64,000 nucleotides of DNA from Bdellovibrionales bacterium. GTDB taxonomy: Bacteria > Bdellovibrionota > Bdellovibrionia > Bdellovibrionales > Bdellovibrionaceae. Below are positions 991 to 56,942 of the stretch, one piece after another. Location: the NCBI GenBank assembly GCA_018266295.1, contig JAFEAQ010000014.1, positions 1-64,000 of the forward strand. The letters are read 5' to 3'. A model generated the notes under the pieces. It made no database searches. It saw nothing but the letters and a program-made list of their open reading frames with translations, and was not told the DNA's origin. Made by a program: the position numbers and the translations under genes. How positions within the stretch are numbered: position 1 is the stretch's first letter; the number at the start of each line of letters is the position of its first letter.

Positions 991-2214
991 CTACTTTGGG
1001 GCGATCCAAATGTCGATGATTTCGCCTTGCTTGATTTTGCCTTTGCTATCTCTGAACCAGAATTTTGAACGTTCGCGCTCTTCCGCGTTTTTGCCTAAGA
1101 GGCGCACCACGTCCTTTTTGTATTTCAGAGAAATCTTTGTCACTTTTTTCGAAAGCGGCATCATCTCTTCAGGCTGACTAATGCCATCGCCATTTTTATC
1201 TTGCCACAAGACAAGCTTATGGAAGTCTTTGTCTTTCGCATCAATCACACCGTCTTTGTTAGTATCCAGCGCACGCAAAGCTTCAAAGCCATTCGGAGTG
1301 GCCTCTCCGTCTTCACCAAAAAGTTCGTTCTTTTGATCGATCAGCCCATTGCCATCACGATCCAATGCCACAAACCAACCCGGATGCTCCGCCTTCGGCC
1401 ACATCGTCTCTCCCCCAGGGTTTAGAGGGAACTTGCTGGAGTTATCAAAGTTCGGTCGCTTGTCATCTTCAAACACCATGAGCGGTGACCAGAAACCGCC
1501 ACAGAAACCCGTTTGACCAGGGTAAGAAACGTTAATTTCGATATTCGAAGTATCTGTTGAAACCGAAATACCGCCGATAGAAGCCGATACAGATCCAGAC
1601 TTACCCATGAACTCACCACAACCATATGTTGGAGTGAATGAAGACCAGCCATAATGGCCCCACACAGGTCCTGTGTTACAGTCCTTCACGTCTTGATCAA
1701 AGCCACCGTTTGCCAGAGACACCGTGGTATTTGCCGGCATTGTGATTTTACCGCTGGAGTCAACGGCGACTCCGGTTTTAAACGGCGTCTTAAGAATCAC
1801 AGTGTTGCCGTAGATCGCCGCGGACTTCACAACAGACGGTGCAAATTTTGAAGCATCCATCGGCTGCACTGCAGAGCCCGTCATACCCGCCGCTGTTACA
1901 AGACTGGCTGGATACTCAACCCAAAAGTTGTAAGTCGTTCCACCGATGGCTAAGTCGAAAGTCGCCTTCAAAACCGAATTCGGAGCAAGGGGATTTGGCA
2001 CTCCACGCAGATTCGTTGGAAAACAGGAGTTATGAATTTTAATCGTGACCGTTTCATTCTCAGCACGGGTGACGAGCCCCGAAGCCGGAGCACTCACTGC
2101 GGATTCCCCGAGCGAGGAGGTATTTACGGACATTGGATAGTTCTGTACCTGAGCGAAGCTAACGCTTCCACCGAGGAGTGCTGACATTAGAGTCAGTAAC
2201 TGAATGTTTCTCAT
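991..2214 (-). CDS. Secreted protein with EF-hand-like calcium-binding loops
   Basis: Last gene of a minor-pilin operon, 18 bp after the PilW-like gene. A TTG four codons upstream extends the frame, but ATG at 2214 has a GGGGG Shine-Dalgarno and starts a typical signal peptide ending SVSFAQ. The middle has no family I recognise. The C-terminal 130 residues contain EF-hand-like loops DRDGNGLID, DTNKDGVIDAKD and DKNGDGISQPEE, then a segment ending in IIDIWIAP. The same C-terminal module recurs in the lipoprotein at 8575-9867. PilY1-type pilus-tip adhesins are also calcium-binding and encoded with minor pilins, so a tip-associated role is plausible but inferred. Confidence 0.6.
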   Translation of the reverse strand: MRNIQLLTLMSALLGGSVSFAQVQNYPMSVNTSSLGESAVSAPASGLVTRAENETVTIKIHNSCFPTNLRGVPNPLAPNSVLKATFDLAIGGTTYNFWVEYPASLVTAAGMTGSAVQPMDASKFAPSVVKSAAIYGNTVILKTPFKTGVAVDSSGKITMPANTTVSLANGGFDQDVKDCNTGPVWGHYGWSSFTPTYGCGEFMGKSGSVSASIGGISVSTDTSNIEINVSYPGQTGFCGGFWSPLMVFEDDKRPNFDNSSKFPLNPGGETMWPKAEHPGWFVALDRDGNGLIDQKNELFGEDGEATPNGFEALRALDTNKDGVIDAKDKDFHKLVLWQDKNGDGISQPEEMMPLSKKVTKISLKYKKDVVRLLGKNAEERERSKFWFRDSKGKIKQGEIIDIWIAPK

Positions 2215-2232
2215 ACGAACCCCCAAAACGTT

Positions 2233-3207
2233 CTACAAGGCCTCTGCCTTATTCACCTTAAAGTAAATCATCCGCTTTAAGACTGAATCCCGGCGCAACG
2301 TAAAGCGATCAATTTTATCCGCCAACAATTGCGGATTCGAAAAAGAACCATTGTCATAAACAGCACGGTAAAGACTCGAAGGCGTAGTCTTAAACCCCTG
2401 AGTCTGCGTGTCTTTCACTAGGTAGTATTTCACAATCTTCACTGCACGCAAACGAATGATCGACTGACCACCGCCCACCGAAGGAACCGTTCTTAAGAAC
2501 GTATCTGCCGAATCGATGGCTGCACCGGTTTCTGGATGCGTGGTCAAAATATTAGTCGCAAAACTTCCCGTCAGTGGATTCAGTGATTGCCCCGAAACAG
2601 TGCCTACAAAAATCGGACTGCGCGGTGGAATCTGCAAATCGACTTTTCCGCCCGTGACAACACGCACTTTCGCCGGAGTGTCCAGCATCAGAGTTTTATT
2701 CGCTTTCCAAAATCCAGGACGCTGAGCCGCCACCCACGCATTTCGATTGATCGACACAAACGACAAAGAAGCTGCCTGATTGAAATCCGCCGAAGAGGCC
2801 CCCACATTGTAAGCCATCACCGGATCATAGATCAGCAATCCCCCTGCGGATTTATCCTGAGTTAAAATATAAAACTCAGTCTTCCCGTCAAGGGTCAGAT
2901 TGATTTCGCGGTCGACACGTTGTTTTAAATAACTCTGCGGCACATCCGGATAGAAATCAAAAAATGAAAGACCATTGTCATCCTTCACATTCATGTTGTT
3001 ATACGAAGGATCAAGGCCATTAAAGTCATTAAATAAAATCCGTTCAGCCAAAGTCTCATCGATATTGGCTTCGAGGTTCTTGCGCATGCGGATCTGATCT
3101 TTGATTAATGAGATCTGAGTGCTCGCAACAAGACCTACCGCGACGCTTGCGATACCAAGCGCCACCATAAGTTCTGCAATGGAGAAACCTCTATTATTTA
3201 TCCTCAT
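2233..3207 (-). CDS. Prepilin-like minor pilin, PilW type
   Basis: Class I prepilin signature: short leader MRINNRG, then cleavage before FSIAELMVALG with Glu at +5, followed by the hydrophobic N-terminal helix. At 324 residues it is long for a pilin and matches the PilW/GspJ size class. The ATG overlaps the stop of the PilV-like gene by 4 bp (ATGA), so the two are translationally coupled; a GGTGAG ribosome site lies inside the upstream gene. Expected to be processed by PilD and inserted into a pilus or pseudopilus initiation complex in the inner membrane. The globular part has no recognised domain. Confidence 0.72.
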   Translation of the reverse strand: MRINNRGFSIAELMVALGIASVAVGLVASTQISLIKDQIRMRKNLEANIDETLAERILFNDFNGLDPSYNNMNVKDDNGLSFFDFYPDVPQSYLKQRVDREINLTLDGKTEFYILTQDKSAGGLLIYDPVMAYNVGASSADFNQAASLSFVSINRNAWVAAQRPGFWKANKTLMLDTPAKVRVVTGGKVDLQIPPRSPIFVGTVSGQSLNPLTGSFATNILTTHPETGAAIDSADTFLRTVPSVGGGQSIIRLRAVKIVKYYLVKDTQTQGFKTTPSSLYRAVYDNGSFSNPQLLADKIDRFTLRRDSVLKRMIYFKVNKAEAL

Positions 3208-3662
3208 TTTGCACTCACCACGAAAACGTAATCACGATATTTTTCACCCTTTACGGCCCATGATTTATGGGTCATACGCAAAGTCACCTGGTAAAGACCG
3301 CGGAACTGTTCCAGCGGCTGAATAATATATCCGTAAGTACCGGCACAATCGGGGCATTCGGCTCTCGTACTGAGAACACCAATATCCCAAGCCATCGGGA
3401 GATTATCCAAAGTCAGAGCAGTCTCTTTGCCCGTCTTGTAATTGAAATTGACCTGATAGTTTTCGATACTGGCTTTGATATTTTCGGCGATATCATCCAC
3501 TTGGCGCTCCGAAGAAGACAGCACCAAGCTGTCCCGCGAGCTTCCTTTAAGCGAGATAAAACCACCGATAAACGCAAACATCACGATCGACAGCAATCCC
3601 AATGAAAGAAGGACTTCGATAAAGGTGTAACCGCTTTGATTATTCAACTTAAAAGTTTTCAT
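3204..3662 (-). CDS. Prepilin-like minor pilin, PilV/GspI type
   Basis: Leader MKTFKLNNQSG, then YTFIEVLLSLG with Glu at +5 and a hydrophobic helix, the class I prepilin signature. An upstream in-frame start at 3695 lies inside the preceding gene, but AAGGAG nine bases before the ATG at 3662 and the position one base after the upstream TAG decide for 3662 (152 residues). A CPDC pair in the head suggests a disulfide. It sits between the giant PilX-like and PilW-like genes with no gap, as minor pilins that form one priming complex usually do. Confidence 0.72.
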   Translation of the reverse strand: MKTFKLNNQSGYTFIEVLLSLGLLSIVMFAFIGGFISLKGSSRDSLVLSSSERQVDDIAENIKASIENYQVNFNYKTGKETALTLDNLPMAWDIGVLSTRAECPDCAGTYGYIIQPLEQFRGLYQVTLRMTHKSWAVKGEKYRDYVFVVSAK

Positions 3663-3663
3663 A

Positions 3664-6642
3664 CTAGCGGGCTCCTTCGCGAGATTGTTCAACAACGAAG
3701 AACCGAATCAAACGGCGTTTACAAGTCGTATTCGAGGCCCCAGAAACCAGACCACAATCAGGATCCACCGCCGTCCACTGGAAAGGATCTGCCTTCGCAC
3801 GAAGACTGATCACGTTACACGCCATTCGGTCTGCAACCTCTTGAATTGAAGGCAACGGATGCCAAATCGGAGATTTCTGCGCCGTACAGCTTGTGCCAGA
3901 AACAGACTTCAAAACTCCGGCAGCACGCAACTCCTGCGTGACCTGCGGATGATAAATACTACTCCAAGTAATACCGGCTTTATAAGCTGACGGATCGATT
4001 TGCAGCTTACCGACAATAAATGTACCGATAATACGCAGCGGATTCTGGCGGGCTTCGATACGTAAAGAATCACAGGTATAGAAACCAGTAATCAGATTGG
4101 CACTGGCTGCAATCACGCACTCTTTGGCGATCGAGTAAACCTTAAAGACACCGTCCGCGCCAGAGTCTAACAAAAGCGTCTTATCGAAGGCCGGATCATG
4201 GCCCGCCACTGAAGAGCTGTCGCCCGCAAAGTTCCATGAACTGCGAGTTGCCCCGGAGAAGTCAACGTCCCAACCGGCACCACCGAAGGACTGAGAAGCC
4301 GTCGCACTGCGCGCATCTTCACAGAGCTGATCCAGAGAATCATAATCGTCCGCATCGTCGGCCACAGCCGCCAACGCGCCACTCGTACTGGTTAAAGCCA
4401 TCGAATCTGGCACCACGAGAGATGTTTTATCCGCGCTAAAATTGAAATTCAAATAGCGCAATAAGTTTGGATTCGCAGGATTCTTGATGGAATTCGTACG
4501 ATAATAAGTACTGTCATAAGCCTGAATGCCAATCGAAGGCTTGATCAGATTTCCTTTAGCATCCAGCAAATTCTGCACGTTGGAAGCGGTGATTTCCATA
4601 TCCACATTCGAAACAGTCCCCCACTTCGCATTGATGGGAGTCATTTTAATTACAAATTTAGGCGGATTATCAAAAACAGACAAAGCATCCTGAGCCTGTT
4701 GTACGGCCTTCGTTGCATTTGTAATCACCGTTTGCTGATTTGGCACATCAGTGTTTTGCAATTGATCGATCGTCGACTGCAAAGATTGAATCTGCGATTT
4801 CAAACTCGCAATCACATCCGGATCTTGATAATAACCCTTTGGCACCGGTGTTGGCGTCGGGGTTGGGCTCACAATAATAACAGGAGTCGACGTCGGTGTC
4901 GGAGTTGGCGAGCTGCTTGTTGAGGTATCATCCGGCGTCGCACTCGCATCCGGAGTCGGCGTTGGCGAAGGACTTGGTGTCGGCGTAATATTGAGATCCG
5001 GCGTCGGTGTTGGCGACGGAGTCGGTGTCGGCGCTGGTTTTACAGGTTTCGCCTCTTCAGTCGCGAGATCTTTCTTTGCTTTCGCCAAGGCGTTTTTCGC
5101 ACTTGTGAGTGAACTATCCAATGTATCAGCCTTATCTTTAGCGAGCTTCAATGCCGACTGGGCAGAAGACAGAGCCGACTGTAGCTGAGCTTTATACTCT
5201 GGCGAACCCACTTCAGGAACAATCGTCAACGTCGATGTTGCCGTCATCGGCGCTGTCACAATACGATCTCCGAGAATAAATGTCAGAGTCATCACCATAG
5301 CTCCATCGGTTGAGCCTTTGCGGCTGACCGTTCCGCTGCCAAAATTCGTGGTCGTTGGTTGCGGAACGTCCCCTTGGTAGGAAAATTTATTCCCCTTATC
5401 CAAAAAGAGACGATAGGTTGGATTATTCTTATTATTGCTTCTTAAATTCGTCGCCAGTTGGGATTTATATAGATAGCTTGCCGAAGACAAGTTTTGGCTG
5501 CGCTCAATACATTTAGACATGAGCCCCGCATCCGGTGTCGATCCCGCAACGACTTTACCAAAAACTTGAAGACCTTTATCAAGTCCTCCGTCATTTTCAA
5601 TACCACGCAAGAAGCCACCAAAAGTCGAAAGATCAGACCAGTAACGGTCTGAAAGCCCGCCTGAAGAGCGTGGCACGAACTGTCCACCGTCTGAATTTTT
5701 AACCCAGCCGTTCCCCAGGTAAACACGGTCGGCAAATGTCACAGCCGCGTAGTTTCCGGAAGCACTGCTTGATGTTGAGCGCGTGTCCGGCGGTAAGTAA
5801 ATATCCTGATTCACAAACACAGGGCTTAAGAACACAAGACCTTGCCCACCACCGGCTTCGGACTTACTTCCGAACATATGTAAAGCAACATCGCCCGTTG
5901 CCATTCCTGCATTATAAGTCTTATCTAGATGCAAATCCTTCGGTACTAATAAGGCAAAAGAACCGACTTCACGTGGATAAATAACGATCTGTGAAGTCAC
6001 CGTCAGTGGCGTGCTGCCGACAGTGATCACATCCGACGAACTTTTGGATGTCTTAAGAGCCAGCGTTGCTTTCAGATAAACTTCGCGGCCCGCACGTGGT
6101 AAATAACCGCTCTCGTCGCGAGTCAGCGTCACGCTGATCCCATCAACCTTGACGACTTTACCAGTCGTTTCATCTGTCACAGTTTTCAAATTCTGCAAGA
6201 CAGAAAAAAGCGGATGGGATGTGGTTGCATTATCGATGCGAATATAGCGAGAGATGCTCTTCAGCGGAATATTTGTTTTATCCACCGGGCCGACGTTGGT
6301 TCCCATCGCGATCAGATTCAAAATAAAATTCACCTGATCATTCGACATAATCAAACGCTCAACACTGCCAGTATTGACGAGATTACATTGGTTGCTCGGA
6401 GCATTGAGAAGGAGGTCATCATCCGTGAAGCAGTACTTCTGGCGCATGCCATAGAGCACGTAGTCCATCGTACTATTCAATGCAAAACGCAAGTTCACAG
6501 CGTTGATGGTTTTACCGATTTGCTTTTTCTGGGCAATCACGTAGTCAGACAAGAAATAGAAGCCAATGCTGATCACCGCGGTCACGGTTAAGACCTGCAT
6601 GAGCATACTGCCCTTGTTATTTAGGAAGAGTGGTTTCCGCAT
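3664..6642 (-). CDS. Giant minor pilin, PilX/GspK-like, with Pro-Thr linker
   Basis: First gene of the pilin operon, 992 residues. The N-terminus ([11 protein letters not shown] then [19 protein letters not shown]) resembles a prepilin, but position +5 is Gln instead of Glu, as in the tip-most GspK/PilX subunits that lack Glu5. Most of the protein is a very large extracellular head. Residues about 480-532 and 604-654 look like paired coiled-coil helices rich in Ala, Lys and Gln; between them is a linker of about 65 residues made almost only of PTPTPSP-type repeats. The C-terminal third is Cys-containing and ends near the PilV-like start. A long adhesive tip subunit is the likely role; the ligand cannot be guessed. 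Confidence 0.65.
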
Positions 6643-8511: not shown

Positions 8512-8574
8512 GACTCCGGCATGCCCTCCCACAGGGGCTCGTTTTTGCATATAAATGCTCTACGGGGCGTGGTG

Positions 8575-9867
8575 ATGGGCAGCAAACGAAGGATTCTACA
8601 ACTCAAGCACATGGCGGGTTTAACGGCCCTGGTATTGCTGTTTCAAAATTGCACAGCAAATCACCTCGTCATCGATGAAGATCTCAAAACCGCCCTTCTT
8701 GCCAGCAACAAGATCCTCACCACCTCAAGTCCTGATGAAGATAGCAAAATCGCCACTTTCACCTTCGTCTGCCCGCAAGCCGGAAACGACAAACCTAAAG
8801 ACCTTCTTCATAGCGGCGAACTCAAAGCCGTGGTTGAGAAGTACGACTTTGAGAGCAACACCTCGACAGTCCTATGCGAAGTCCATAACGTCAGAAAACA
8901 GATTCTCGATAGCCGGAGTGTCGACCTTTCAAGCTGCGAAGAAATTCCGGGTCCGCAAAATGCTCACATGGATTTGTATATCGTAGAAGAATCCGTTACG
9001 AAGAACTTCAGCCAGCACAAAATCAACATCGACACAACGCCACTCGCACTGGGTGGTTATTCCCTGAACTATCTTGCGATGAGCCCCGAGGCAAAGAATT
9101 CAGCCTGTGACGAGGCCGGCGCACCACTGATGATTCAGCTTGGAAATAACACAACGGCCCTCACTCTGACAGCACCGAGCGACGGGGTTGATCTGGATCT
9201 CTTGGGTGGCAAGTCCTACCCAAGCCCGCATGATAAAGTCCACGCATCTTGGCCAACACCAAACTCGGCAAACGACGTTTACATGCTCGTAAAACCAAAC
9301 CGTGACCATCTTGTTCTGGGAGCTGATGAAATGTTTGCCGATACCACACTCGGCCCGGACACAAAGTACGTTAAACAAGGCTTCGCAGCTCTTGCAAAGT
9401 ATGATGACAACAAGGACCAAATGATCACCGCGGAAGACGTTGTTTTCAGTGAACTTCGTCTATGGAAAGACTCTAACCATGACGGCCGAGTTCAAGAAAG
9501 CGAACTCAGCACATTGTCAGATTTAAAAATTTTAGCCTTGGATTTACGCTATGAAACTCAGTACCGCGAAACGGATGCTTATGGCAACCAAAGCCGTTAC
9601 AAATCCGTTGTGGTCATGGAAGACCAAAGTTACGGAATGATCTTCGATCTCTGGCTGCGCTTTATTCATAAAACACCGGCGCCAGAAATCGTCAAGCTCG
9701 CTCCGGTCCCGGTTAGTGAGGATGCTGGCGCGGCGGACTCCAGTGACGATCACGAACTTCCATCTCTTGATCAGAGCCCTGCAGACACGAACTCACAAAT
9801 AAGCGAACCCCACGAGGAGACGCCTCAGACAGAGTCAGCTCTGTCTGTTGCCGAGCCGGCAGAGTGA
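8575..9867 (+). CDS. Probable lipoprotein with the EF-hand-like C-terminal module
   Basis: The ATG at 8575 begins MGSKRRILQLKH and a hydrophobic stretch ending LFQNC, a plausible though imperfect lipobox; an earlier frame start at 8521 lies too close to the terminator. The middle is not recognised. Residues about 270-380 contain YDDNKDQMITAEDVVF and LWKDSNHDGRVQESEL, then a segment ending MIFDLWLRF. This aligns with the end of the secreted protein at 991-2214 (shared GFxAL, LWxDxNxDG, IxDLW). The tail after residue 385 is rich in Pro, Asp, Glu and Ser, like a disordered surface tail. Its last 155 bp overlap the convergent gene. Confidence 0.55.
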   Translation: MGSKRRILQLKHMAGLTALVLLFQNCTANHLVIDEDLKTALLASNKILTTSSPDEDSKIATFTFVCPQAGNDKPKDLLHSGELKAVVEKYDFESNTSTVLCEVHNVRKQILDSRSVDLSSCEEIPGPQNAHMDLYIVEESVTKNFSQHKINIDTTPLALGGYSLNYLAMSPEAKNSACDEAGAPLMIQLGNNTTALTLTAPSDGVDLDLLGGKSYPSPHDKVHASWPTPNSANDVYMLVKPNRDHLVLGADEMFADTTLGPDTKYVKQGFAALAKYDDNKDQMITAEDVVFSELRLWKDSNHDGRVQESELSTLSDLKILALDLRYETQYRETDAYGNQSRYKSVVVMEDQSYGMIFDLWLRFIHKTPAPEIVKLAPVPVSEDAGAADSSDDHELPSLDQSPADTNSQISEPHEETPQTESALSVAEPAE

Positions 9868-52214: not shown

Positions 52215-52871
52215 ATGAAAACACTTTTAATGACACTGACATTGATCTTGACGTCTCTCTTTGCAAACGCAGCCACCGGCAATGGCCCGATCGATACACC
52301 TTGGGCTGACAGCGTGACTCAAGTTTATCGTGAATACTATGACCGCGCTCCGGGAGTTCTGGTGCCAAAGAACTTTAAGATGACAAAAGTTCTTTTCCAC
52401 GGATCTCAATTGTCGAATCCGAACAATAAAGTCTTTACCGCCTATTTTGATATCGGATCCGGCGACAAGACCTACCATGCAGCAATCCAATTTAAAACGG
52501 ATGCAAATGGCAAGCTGGATTCTTTCGAGGACATCTTTGAAATTTCAGCATCAATGGTCACAGATCAAAACGGCAACGACCGCCGCTTCCCGATGGGTAT
52601 GAATGAAAGCCAGTTCGCACTGCTCCGCCAAGAGGCTTTTGAAGCGGCAAAACCTGTCTTCGTTCAAGCCAATGGCAAAGCCAACGTGGGTACGGTCTAC
52701 GTTCAAACTTTCGATGCGAGCGAAACAATGCAACCGAAAATCAGCATTGAAGTCAGCGCCGCTGCTATTCCAAAAAACTGGGAAGGCCAATCCATGAGCC
52801 AATCCGTCTATGTACTTGTCGCTACGAACAACGGCAAAGTGCTTAATGTGAAAAAAGGTTGGTATTACTAA
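52215..52871 (+). CDS. Exported protein, unknown (218 aa)
   Basis: Signal peptide ends SLFANAATG. The mature domain is alpha/beta and Cys-free, with YHAAIQFKTDANGKLDSFED and PKISIEVSAAAIPKNW. No family recognised. Same strand and likely same transcript as the gene before it; its stop overlaps the convergent pilin gene by 4 bp. Confidence 0.6.
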   Translation: MKTLLMTLTLILTSLFANAATGNGPIDTPWADSVTQVYREYYDRAPGVLVPKNFKMTKVLFHGSQLSNPNNKVFTAYFDIGSGDKTYHAAIQFKTDANGKLDSFEDIFEISASMVTDQNGNDRRFPMGMNESQFALLRQEAFEAAKPVFVQANGKANVGTVYVQTFDASETMQPKISIEVSAAAIPKNWEGQSMSQSVYVLVATNNGKVLNVKKGWYY

Positions 52872-54001
52872 TAAGGAATCGGAGTGACGAGGGTCGTGAT
52901 ACTGTTAAATCCGGCGGAGTACGAGCTCGAAGCGGGCCTGTACTCTATATTAAACGGCCCTTCGATTTTCTGCGAGAACGCAAAAAAGCAAGCCCCTTCA
53001 AAACAGGCTTCAACTCGGCCATTATAGACTTTAAATCTTAAAACAGAGGTCGAAGTCAGATTCATATATGCAGGCTTCGTCGCCACAAGCGTACTGCCTC
53101 CATACCACAGTTCAAAAGTAGGACCCACGGGGTTTAAACGAAACTCAAAGTTACAAACCCCTGTTACGTAATCAACCAGGCACACGCGGGCGATCCCCTC
53201 TGCGTCCGGAACAGAATCCGCATTCAAATCCGAAGCCCCAAAGGCATAGCGAAAATCTGCCTGGGTGCTGGAGCAAGGAAGAATCGGCCGGTCATAGTGA
53301 CCACTGCCCGTCACAAAGTTTTTCCCGCTCACCGTCGATGCCACTTGAGCGGCCGTCACCGTCACGCCCGAACCTTGGGCCACCAGAACCGGATTCCCTG
53401 CCGGTGTCACTGGCGGGCAATAAAATCCACTTTTCACCAAACGGAAATTCAGGCGATTAAAATTGAGTGGCAAATTATTTGGCGAGCTATAGCGAAAGTT
53501 CGCTGAAATTTCGACCGCCGGATTTTCACAGGGACTCGCCGAACACAAAGACCGTGCGCGGATCTCAACCCGCAGAGGGCATTGCGGATTCGGTGTTCCC
53601 GTCGGTGATTCACCATAGGTATCGCAGGCATTTCCCTCCGGAGAAAATCCCATCGTCGGTTTTTGAAAGTCATAGAACAAACGCCCTTTGGCATCATAGA
53701 TATCGATCATCTGCGCTGTCAGGCCACAATCACGATCTGACGGAGTCAACGACGCTTGGTTCTTAAAACAACCGAAGCTTGCGGCATTCAAATCTCCGAG
53801 CACCGTTTGCTCCCACGAGCCACTGCTGCGAAGAAGACTGAGAATATTCGAACGCACCACCAGAAAGTTCGATTGCATGTCGAGTTGATTCTGCCCGACA
53901 GAGAGCTGGCGGAAAATGGAGATGCTTGCCGTCATCACGCCAAGAATCAGGGCCATGGTCACCATCACTTCAAAAACCGAAAAACCTCTACGTCCTAACA
54001 A
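52868..54001 (-). CDS. Prepilin-like minor pilin (cluster 2, Glu5 type)
   Basis: Leader MLGRRG, then FSVFEVMVTMALILGVMTAS with Glu at +5, the class I prepilin pattern. The 377-residue protein carries the shared Cys-rich head (IDIYDAKGRLFYDFQKPTMG, CDTYGE, CENPAVEI) plus a C-terminal domain of about 170 residues that looks like a beta-sandwich (LRFKVYNGRVEACFEGAC). Follows the next gene by 3 bp, so the two form an operon. Confidence 0.7.
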   Translation of the reverse strand: MLGRRGFSVFEVMVTMALILGVMTASISIFRQLSVGQNQLDMQSNFLVVRSNILSLLRSSGSWEQTVLGDLNAASFGCFKNQASLTPSDRDCGLTAQMIDIYDAKGRLFYDFQKPTMGFSPEGNACDTYGESPTGTPNPQCPLRVEIRARSLCSASPCENPAVEISANFRYSSPNNLPLNFNRLNFRLVKSGFYCPPVTPAGNPVLVAQGSGVTVTAAQVASTVSGKNFVTGSGHYDRPILPCSSTQADFRYAFGASDLNADSVPDAEGIARVCLVDYVTGVCNFEFRLNPVGPTFELWYGGSTLVATKPAYMNLTSTSVLRFKVYNGRVEACFEGACFFAFSQKIEGPFNIEYRPASSSYSAGFNSITTLVTPIPY

Positions 54002-54004
54002 CCA

Positions 54005-54571
54005 TCACCTCAGCCTGAAATTACGCTCATAATTATCAGTGTTCAAATCAACCGCCCCTGCCACTCCCGTCGGGGTCAAGACAAGCTTCCCCCGCACCAC
54101 CACAGGGGGGCTGTAACAGGTACCCGTGGCCGGACACTCTGGCTGCCAAGTCATCTCATAGCGTAGAAAGCAGCTCCCAGGGTTTGTCGTTCCAAATGTA
54201 GTACAGGGTTTAAAATCAATATCAAAGCCATTGCTCGGGCTCGAAGAATCAACAAGCACATTTCCTTCATCATCATAAACGGCCAGTGGGTACTCTCCCA
54301 TTGGGCACACGAAAGAAGGATCATTCATGCATTTCTCAAGATCCGCTCCACTGTTTTTATTGAGAGCAGCAGTGACCGTTCTGTTCCACGAGCGTTGACT
54401 TTTGAACGAGGACTCAACGGACAAAACCAAGGAATCGAGTGTTCCTTTGAAAAACGTGCGTTTGCGGGCAACACTATTTCCGGTGATTCGCGCTGAGATA
54501 TAGAATGAAATTGAGACAACTGCGACGAGCAGAACGACTATATAGCCAATGGCGATGAAGCCTCGATTCAT
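54005..54571 (-). CDS. Prepilin-like minor pilin without Glu5 (cluster 2)
   Basis: A very short leader MNRG precedes FIAIGYIVVLLVAVVSISFY; +5 is Gly, not Glu, as in GspK/PilX-type tip subunits. 188 residues with the Cys-rich head: CPMGEYPLAVYDDEGNVLVD, SNGFDIDFKPC, SCFLRYEMTWQPEC and CYSPPVVVRG. The same head occurs in the pilins at 52868 and 54660. First gene of a two-gene operon, divergent from the solenoid pilin with 88 bp between. Confidence 0.65.
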   Translation of the reverse strand: MNRGFIAIGYIVVLLVAVVSISFYISARITGNSVARKRTFFKGTLDSLVLSVESSFKSQRSWNRTVTAALNKNSGADLEKCMNDPSFVCPMGEYPLAVYDDEGNVLVDSSSPSNGFDIDFKPCTTFGTTNPGSCFLRYEMTWQPECPATGTCYSPPVVVRGKLVLTPTGVAGAVDLNTDNYERNFRLR

Positions 54572-54659
54572 ATCAAAACACTCCCAAGAAAATTAGAAAA
54601 TATTTCTATGTTTAAGTCCATGAGAAAACATGACGAAATGTTTAGGGTCGAGGTACGTT

Positions 54660-56942
54660 ATGAATCGCCGAGGGTTTACTGTAATTGATTTTATGCTCGC
54701 GTGCGCTCTAGCTGGAATCTCAGGTCTCGCTCTCATGTCGTTCGGACAGCTCGTGAGTGAATACACAAGAAAAGCCAACGTTAAGTTTGGCGTCTCAGAC
54801 GTGCGTTCTGAGATTATGATGATCACCATGGATCCAAAAGCCTGGGGTCTTAACATCTCTAAAGCCGCATCCTCTGCGGATGCCGGCGGAACATACAATC
54901 CTGAGATGGCATGCCTTAAAGACAAAACCAACTGTAACGAAGGGGAATACCCTCTTTCATTGTTCGACGGCTCTGGCCGAGTTCTTGTCGATGCCTTAAA
55001 TCCTAACCAGGGCTTTACCTCAAAAGGCTCTCAATGCTTTACCTATGGTGCAACCGATGGGAGCGAGGGCGACTGTATTTTCCGTTACCAAATGCGCTGG
55101 GAAGCGGTTTGTCCGCCAGCGCAAACGTCCTGCAAAAATCCGCAGGTTCATTTGAAACTGAATCTTTTAACGAGCACTCAACAGCAATCGACCTATATGA
55201 ATATGCGCACAACGCAAGTTGCGATGGGCATGGACATGATTGCCGTAGACCCTATCGAGATGAGCAGCATGTCCACTCCGCCTCCGGCAACACCACCTGC
55301 GGATCCAAGTCTGGTGTCTTATACAAACTCAACTCTCTATTCCACAAGCAACACGATTGTGATTGATTTGTCTGCTTTTGTCGAAGACGCAACAGGCGTG
55401 ACGTTCAGTCTTGCGGCGCCAAAGTCTTCAGAGAACGGAACTGTAATTCTCTCCGGCAGCAGCGTGACTTACACGCCGGCGGCTGGTTTCTATGGCCATG
55501 ACACGTTCCCATTTGTGGCGACCGATGCCTTGGGCGGAGTGAAGCTCCTCAATGCCAAAGTCGAAGTGATGACTCCGCACTCTTGGACGGGCCAGGCCGG
55601 CGATAAAGATGCTTCAAATCCACTCAACTGGTGCGGAGTTGTTGTTGCCGGTCAGTGTGACCATGCCTCTTTCGGCAGCGGCCTCTTAAACAGCGATGCT
55701 CACGTCGTTTTCGATGACACTTGTCTTGCTGGCAATTGCGACGCGAACTTTCCGCAGTCGACAATCACGATTCGTCGCTACGAACAAAAAGCCACGTACA
55801 AATCGACCGTGACGATGAATTGCAGCGCCCTGAACGTCAACTCACTGAGCTCTGGCTCTTACGCCCTCAGCAATAAAATCTCGAACTCCGGCGACAACGT
55901 CGCCGATCTGGATATTCAAGGTGGATCGTTTAAAGCGGTTGGCAGCTGTAAAGCCACTGTCTATGGTTGCACGCACATCGGCTCTGGTGTCACGAGCACC
56001 GATCTTCCGGCAATGAATATCTTTACTGACAAAAATCCACTGGGTGCTGCACCTGCCGCCGGCTCTTGCACGGGCTTTAAGGCTGAAGCCACCAAAGAGC
56101 AGTTGCCATCCTTTGCGAGCAATCCAATTGTACTGACCCCTGTGAATGAATCGAAACCGGAACTGTACTTGGATAAATCTTTGGATCTTGCCAATTTCAA
56201 AACCGGCACTTGTGTGAACACCTATTCTACTTGCTCGGTGTACTATACTTCTGATTTAGATCCAGCGACGACTTCAGCGTCGAACGCTGTGAACGGAAAC
56301 TTTAGCAGCAGTATTTTCGCTGGCCATTGTAAGAACTTTTTCGATCAAGCCTCTTCACTGGTGTTAGATGCGACGAACGACGTGAACAAAAGTGGCTTCG
56401 CTGGAACTTTCACGGTCCCAGCTGCACGTAACGTTGCTGTCAGCGGCGGTGCGGGAACTCTCTATATTCGTTCAGCTATTAAAGTAACAAGTGTCTCCGG
56501 CATTGCGGGTGATACTGCAATTAATGCTGGCAGCGTTGACGGCATCGGCGGCATGGCCGGAACTCTGTGTATTAAAACAGGCGTGCTTGGCGATATCACG
56601 GGCACAGCCGGAGAATTTAATATCTCAGCAACCACCGTCGGAAACCTCAAAGGTGGTGCCGGCACACTGAGACTTCGCGCTTACTCGATCAAATCCATTC
56701 AAGGTGCAGGTCCCATGGACGTGACTGCAAAAACACTCGGCGCACTTTCCGGTGCTGGCACGATGGAAATGCGCGTCGGTGCGATCGATACGATTACCGG
56801 TGCAATGACTCTGAATTTGTACGGCACTGTCGTGAATAGCTTAGATAATTTTGCCGGTGATGTTTGCCTCTATAACGGAGCGAAGATCCTCAATGTGGGC
56901 TCTTACGCCGGCACTATCAAAGACTGCGGCACAGCTCCTTAG
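54660..56942 (+). CDS. Minor pilin fused to cadherin-like domain and beta-solenoid-like tail
   Basis: Start MNRRG at 54660 (GAGG upstream) rather than 54630. The prepilin helix FTVIDFMLACALAGISGLAL has Asp at +5. Residues 65-185 are the Cys-rich pilin head (GEYPLSLFDGSGRVLVD, CIFRYQMRWEAVC, CKNPQVHL). A Pro linker (PPPATPPADPS) leads to a cadherin/Ig-like domain near residues 225-310 (FSLAAPKSSENGTVILSG, YTPAAGFYGHDTF). Residues about 595-755 are nine or so repeats of 17 residues (AGTLYIRS, AGTLCIKT, AGEFNIS, AGTLRLRA) that look like a right-handed beta-solenoid. Likely a long adhesive tip. Confidence 0.65.
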   Translation: MNRRGFTVIDFMLACALAGISGLALMSFGQLVSEYTRKANVKFGVSDVRSEIMMITMDPKAWGLNISKAASSADAGGTYNPEMACLKDKTNCNEGEYPLSLFDGSGRVLVDALNPNQGFTSKGSQCFTYGATDGSEGDCIFRYQMRWEAVCPPAQTSCKNPQVHLKLNLLTSTQQQSTYMNMRTTQVAMGMDMIAVDPIEMSSMSTPPPATPPADPSLVSYTNSTLYSTSNTIVIDLSAFVEDATGVTFSLAAPKSSENGTVILSGSSVTYTPAAGFYGHDTFPFVATDALGGVKLLNAKVEVMTPHSWTGQAGDKDASNPLNWCGVVVAGQCDHASFGSGLLNSDAHVVFDDTCLAGNCDANFPQSTITIRRYEQKATYKSTVTMNCSALNVNSLSSGSYALSNKISNSGDNVADLDIQGGSFKAVGSCKATVYGCTHIGSGVTSTDLPAMNIFTDKNPLGAAPAAGSCTGFKAEATKEQLPSFASNPIVLTPVNESKPELYLDKSLDLANFKTGTCVNTYSTCSVYYTSDLDPATTSASNAVNGNFSSSIFAGHCKNFFDQASSLVLDATNDVNKSGFAGTFTVPAARNVAVSGGAGTLYIRSAIKVTSVSGIAGDTAINAGSVDGIGGMAGTLCIKTGVLGDITGTAGEFNISATTVGNLKGGAGTLRLRAYSIKSIQGAGPMDVTAKTLGALSGAGTMEMRVGAIDTITGAMTLNLYGTVVNSLDNFAGDVCLYNGAKILNVGSYAGTIKDCGTAP

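Follow-up and report, generated by a model that had tools for sequence, protein, structure and literature searches.

What do three clustered genes with prepilin-like N-termini build when the largest of them, encoding 760 residues, ends in a long array of short regular repeats? The genes lie at positions 52868-56942 of a stretch of 64,000 nucleotides (hereafter the window) from the 4.22 Mb genome of a Bdellovibrionales bacterium (assembly GCA_018266295.1, contig JAFEAQ010000014.1). We consider it likely that the three proteins form the minor-pilin tip complex of a type IV filament, with added C-terminal modules on two of them. All open reading frames (ORFs) were verified and the locus is arranged as follows.

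52868..54001, minus strand: predicted modular minor pilin of 377 aa with Glu5 and a TTG start; C-terminal beta-sandwich at about residues 225-372, predicted galectin/ConA-like fold
54005..54571, minus strand: predicted minor pilin of 188 aa from the common head family, with Gly5 and without an added module
54572..54659, no strand: divergent intergenic region of 88 bp between the 188-aa and the 760-aa gene
54660..56942, plus strand: predicted modular minor pilin of 760 aa with helix alpha1, six-Cys head, Big_9 domain, WTG/NWCG motif, unmodelled region and beta-solenoid

The 760-aa ORF starts with ATG at 54660, codes to 56939 and has its stop up to 56942; a longer frame of 770 aa opens upstream, the prepilin start being 54660. 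The 188-aa ORF starts with ATG at 54571, and the TTG start of the 377-aa protein (54001) comes almost immediately after its stop.

The N-termini of all three proteins are of the prepilin type. With a slash at the expected processing site, the leaders read MNRRG/FTVID in the 760-aa, MNRG/FIAIG in the 188-aa and LGRRG/FSVFE in the 377-aa protein, giving Asp, Gly and Glu at position 5. In the PDB, the profile of the head family aligned with solved type IV pilins at residue 1 of their mature form (best E 3.4e-6), and a prepilin peptidase gene is encoded in the genome. The curated models PF07963 and TIGR02532 stayed below threshold or did not match for the three proteins and do match other members of the family; since Asp5 and Gly5 depress the scores of these models, we regard the miss as weak counter-evidence. 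The 760-aa protein, for which an AlphaFold2 (AF2) model was built with 11 sequences, is divided into the following parts; model confidence is given as the predicted local distance difference test (pLDDT).

54660..54830, plus strand: class III leader (MNRRG) and pilin helix alpha1, residues 1-57; AF2 helix 8-57, profile alignment to solved pilins
54831..55184, plus strand: six-Cys pilin head, residues 58-175; Cys 85, 92, 126, 139, 151 and 158, strands mostly pLDDT 80-90
55344..55568, plus strand: Big_9 / cadherin-like immunoglobulin (Ig) domain, residues 229-303; PF17963 36.3 bits, cadherin and phage-collar Ig matches with Z 7-8
55569..55787, plus strand: region with the motif WTG...NWCG...C..C, residues 304-376; common to lipoproteins and long solenoid pilins of relatives
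55788..56375, plus strand: Cys-containing residues 377-572 without a confident model; pLDDT <50 through most of 386-572
56376..56939, plus strand: predicted C-terminal beta-solenoid of ~10 repeats of 16-18 residues; C-terminal motif GDVCLYNGAKILN..C

The head unites the three proteins: residues 1-175 of the 760-aa protein share 29% and 26% identity with the two neighbours (E 2e-16 and 3e-13) and also match proteins in many relatives. In an alignment across 15 relatives all six Cys were invariant and Trp62, Gly118 and Pro161 nearly so; in the AF2 model, the head strands (91-171) mostly have pLDDT values of 80-90. In Pfam and NCBIfam, members of the family were recognised only through the pilin motif at the N-terminus and, weakly, by a few prepilin or minor-pilin models. 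Judged from these searches, the six-Cys head appears to be new, with no entry in either database, and to recur across the Bdellovibrionota, often as triplets. Near-full-length matches with E 1e-15 or better were found in ~49 of 369 genomes of the phylum, as counted by hand from the listing. The larger figure printed for the head model, 253 of 369 genomes, also counts helix-only matches and was therefore not accepted as a distribution. Elsewhere in the same genome, contig C11 (L115:4647-6232) carries a pair of pilins matching the six-Cys profile, of 253 aa with Glu5 and 278 aa with Gln5.

Downstream of the head, Pfam placed Big_9 on residues 229-294 (36.3 bits, cut-off 23.6), Cadherin_5 remaining sub-threshold, and the following motif region reads VMTPHSWTG...NWCG...C....C. 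The ~180 residues preceding the solenoid remain unmodelled by AF2. Residues 573-760 were modelled as almost all beta, with a nearly unbroken strand from 575 to 757 and pLDDT values of 74-91. The repeat units, ~10 of 16-18 residues each, span 581-757, and a period of 17 over 561-760 outscored 500 of 500 shuffles. By this model, residues 573-760 are predicted to form a beta-solenoid with the regular short repeats as stacked beta turns. Foldseek of the 760-aa model returned nothing at E 1e-3. Realignment of its candidates gave the beta-helices of MpAFP (Ca-dependent antifreeze domain; Z 14.3, root mean square deviation (rmsd) 3.7, 201 residues), HxuA (Z 11.6, rmsd 3.3, 172 residues) and tapirin (Z 11.3, rmsd 3.1, 186 residues). 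Left-handed LpxD and GlmU helices ranked high and were not accepted as matches, their rmsd being near 11. Some of the matched beta-helices are adhesins, among them the tapirins of Caldicellulosiruptor, which resemble the solenoid model in fold only, with no sequence match; fold likeness by itself proves no function. A PDB sequence search gave no match for the 760-aa protein or the solenoid profile, Pfam found nothing above chance in the solenoid, and a single-sequence scan of the genome contigs revealed no close relative of the entire protein. With Big_9 and the predicted solenoid, both non-pilus domains, C-terminal to the pilin moiety, the protein appears to be a modular pilin.

The preliminary description had proposed a minor-pilin cluster in which an Asp5 prepilin helix, a Cys-rich head, a cadherin-like domain and about nine 17-residue repeats are joined in one protein, with a Gly5 and a Glu5 pilin divergent from it. 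The helix, the head and both divergent pilins (188 and 377 aa) are borne out, the cluster assignment is supported by the prepilin-type N-termini and the common head, and the structure prediction that had been suggested as a check gave a solenoid at the C-terminus. The cadherin-like domain holds as an Ig-type domain, Big_9 and not Cadherin_5 being above its cut-off; the period of 17 stands and the count is now ~10 units of 16-18 residues; the WTG/NWCG region and the unmodelled residues 377-572 had been missed.

A module is also predicted on the 377-aa protein, whose C-terminal half is kept in the counterparts of two relatives. In a low-confidence model its C-terminal strands matched galectins with Z ~11 and rmsd ~3 over 120-135 residues, which is most of the galectin domain. 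It is probably a lectin-type sandwich, a lead that makes sugar binding putative.

Furthermore, the large member's C-terminus differs among relatives, being a solenoid, RCC1 repeats, thrombospondin-1 (TSP1), an S74 fibre, Calx-beta, a Gly-rich region or a von Willebrand factor A (vWA)-like domain. Pfam identified RCC1 repeats at two loci (L086, L087), the S74 chaperone at two (L088, L112), TSP1 at two (L090, L091) and Calx-beta at one (L108), Fibrinogen_C in L109 being narrowly sub-threshold. The Gly-rich modules of L049 and L093 and the vWA-like modules of L057, L102, L106 and L109 were assigned by eye; in L057, L106 and L109 a DxSxS motif is visible, unconfirmed by Pfam and, for L057, also by PDB sequence. 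Proteins of 1043-1122 aa in relatives have the WTG region in common and carry long beta-strand-like repeats. The relatives found through the common module are metagenome genomes of Bdellovibrionales or Bdellovibrionaceae and one Oligoflexia. In one genome (G005) a solenoid-type cluster coexists with a TSP1 cluster, consistent with alternative tips in one cell. At another locus (L088:6201-11998) three consecutive pilins end in S74 chaperone-like modules, like S74 MAT fibres, Pfam finding S74 on the one that was scanned.

Of 44 clusters read, in a sample chosen by matches, 20 are triplets. Exactly one non-acidic position 5 was found in 13 of the 20, against ~9 expected from the overall frequency, which is modest support because the sample was match-selected. 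Where the large member is solenoid-type or Gly-rich (L042, L044, L045, L046 and L049), an adjacent small pilin without Glu5 was present in 5/5, as was another pilin with Glu5. The large member itself has Asp5 here and Glu5 in its closest relatives.

Modules of this kind are shared with lipoproteins. The window solenoid was combined with its four paralogues into a profile, which in the same genome matched two lipoproteins, a single short ORF and a further pilin. This second solenoid pilin (contig C19, L039:5004-6626; 541 aa, GQSLVSV, Ser5) differs in its head and has a stalk rich in Pro and Thr; a pilin-like ORF of 288 aa adjoins it. On contig C11 (L038:6170-8783) two lipoproteins with the same solenoid are adjacent, the longer with a long PTPTP stalk. 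A lipobox, typically FQNC, was seen by eye in 16/16 solenoid proteins read from other genomes. By these sequences, the solenoid appears to be borne otherwise by lipoproteins, and only this genome seems to graft it, onto two different pilin heads. A small tree placed both solenoid pilins together with the short ORF (C6) at a support of 0.88, so two separate grafts are no more and no less likely than a single one that later passed from one head to the other. The WTG module, too, is found on lipoproteins (L010, L011, L015, L034, L043) as well as on pilins (L042, L044-L046, L084). The last of these loci (L084:4549-8004), from an Oligoflexia bacterium, encodes a GQSLVS pilin and then a 928-aa WTG pilin, which puts the module on a second head type. 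In the window itself, a 448-aa lipoprotein with an FQNC lipobox (8521-9864, plus strand) matches the C-terminus of the modular pilin L107 with 33% identity over ~310 residues.

How could the trio work? The prepilin peptidase of the genome would cut all three leaders. The 188-aa pilin lacks Glu5 and would therefore be unable to neutralise a pilin above it and go in first, starting or capping the filament as PilA of Streptococcus sanguinis or the K subunit of HIJK complexes does. The 377-aa and 760-aa pilins would join through their alpha1 helices, their bulky modules protruding at the exposed end, the former contributing the lectin-like module and the latter the Ig domain and the beta-solenoid, which would be a grafted surface-binding module. 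Since the solenoid is otherwise lipoprotein-borne, the complex would attach the filament to a surface of polysaccharide or protein, possibly that of prey.

A close precedent in make-up is the tip of S. sanguinis, in which a small PilA without Glu5 is combined with the modular PilB and PilC, PilC carrying a ConA-like lectin (PMC9934059). As in PilA-PilB-PilC, which was modelled as a tip adhesin (PMC9934059, PMC8179133), three minor pilins are neighbours, the small one is Glu5-less and the two others are modular with C-terminal domains and have an acidic residue 5. Unlike PilABC, the trio belongs to a diderm lineage, has a six-Cys head matched by no model used and a divergent gene order, bears a solenoid in place of vWA in this genome and is known from genes alone. 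MAT fibres of Bdellovibrio, from the same bacterial group, likewise keep a constant carrier and exchange the adhesive modules at its C-terminus, with S74 on both, but they are trimeric surface fibres behind a signal peptide and not a pilin helix (PMC10769870).

Several points weigh against a tip complex. We infer leader processing, co-assembly and stacking, tip location, binding and ligand; the trio lies apart from the core pilin operons, and the filament that uses it may be a type IVa pilus, type II secretion-like or another one. The 377-aa model has a mean pLDDT of only 51, with the lectin-like half mostly at 21-57. The fold-search matches of the 760-aa model contained no pilin row, the head fold itself not having been searched. 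Finally, one of the 13 triplets (L108) turned out to have a mis-placed site, and the excess of triplets with one non-acidic position 5 is modest among loci selected by matches.

Among the alternatives, a Tad/Kil-type predation tip of a Bdellovibrio-group predator survives best and is still unlikely. The KilL/M/N tips of Myxococcus xanthus Tad pili are triplets with a variable, large C-terminal module on the large member; many disulfides are predicted in them, and a genome holds several paralogous clusters; their host is a predator, and a Bdellovibrio tip was predicted (PMC12075869). Unlike the trio, they are Tad-type pilins, homologues of TadE/F/G with different domains, and have been tied to prey killing by experiment; the tip1-4 genes, as defined by sequence, occur almost only in Myxococcales (PMC12075869). 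The heads described here align with type IV pilins of the PDB, and PF07963/TIGR02532 match some members; in the Pfam and NCBIfam scans, which involved no direct comparison with Kil proteins, there was no match to a Tad model.

We regard as improbable a DNA-uptake tip in which the solenoid pilin is the DNA receptor for natural transformation. Its model is ComZ-PilA2 of Thermus thermophilus, where a DNA-binding pilin that contains a beta-solenoid, and is argued to fit only at the fibre tip, is paired with a small partner pilin (PMC6561018). The solenoid of ComZ, ~380 residues, sits within the pilin sheet, inserted between its last two strands (PMC6561018), whereas that of the trio, ~190 residues, is C-terminal behind Big_9; moreover, it occurs on lipoproteins, and its replacement by RCC1, TSP1, S74, Calx-beta or vWA-like modules suits varied ligands better than DNA.

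To our knowledge, large and varied modules are atypical of pseudopilins. A short periplasmic pseudopilus of the type II secretion kind, with the modules in cargo handling, is likewise improbable for this reason and because no Gsp model reached its cut-off and the modules are also found on lipoproteins, likely surface-located, although GspH gave weak matches in the helix and HIJK complexes likewise have one Glu5-less member.

Returning to the tip complex of a type IV filament, prey contact by the trio is plausible by analogy with Kil tips and MAT fibres. Already known are the PilABC tip, ComZ with its union of pilin and beta-solenoid (PMC6561018), and modular pilins, for which up to 264 architectures have been described (PMC8179133). 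The preliminary description had called the architecture unfamiliar, which was only partly right: because ComZ exists and modular pilins are common, a pilin plus solenoid belongs to a known kind. Its idea of alternative pilus tips gains strength from the module swapping in relatives, the precedent in a predator being the Kil tips of Myxococcus (PMC12075869). The lineage seems to alter the grip of its pili by exchanging the end piece. The chief interest lies in the lineage-wide six-Cys platform and in modules common to lipoproteins, fibres and pilins. More tentatively, and with somewhat less than an even chance, we envisage a tip platform throughout the Bdellovibrionota, a six-Cys triplet whose large member would acquire modules from surface lipoproteins and fibre proteins of the same cell: this solenoid, WTG solenoids, an EF-hand-like domain and the S74 fibre. 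If so, one recognition module would be displayed in two places, the cell surface and the end of a filament that can be retracted, and the range of prey or surfaces would evolve by domain grafting onto pilins. The swappable modules are concrete candidate receptors for the pili of the Bdellovibrio group. The literature search found no paper pairing modular pilins with Bdellovibrio. The trio would extend the modular-pilin principle to a large diderm group, with a head family unnamed in current databases.

As to the genomic setting, PADLOC gave zero matches and a scan for promoters and terminators stayed at shuffle level, with no promoter-like match in the 88-bp intergenic region. A search for PilY1 in this genome and 197 relatives gave no match, but the positive control was silent too, so the gene may still be present. 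A first cluster in the window (2233-6642, minus strand) is likewise a pilin triplet, comprising a 992-aa protein with Gln5 and two others with Glu5, whose heads the profile used does not assign to the six-Cys family. Directly downstream of it, a 411-aa exported protein (994-2226, minus strand) has an EF-hand (PF13202) at the cut-off.

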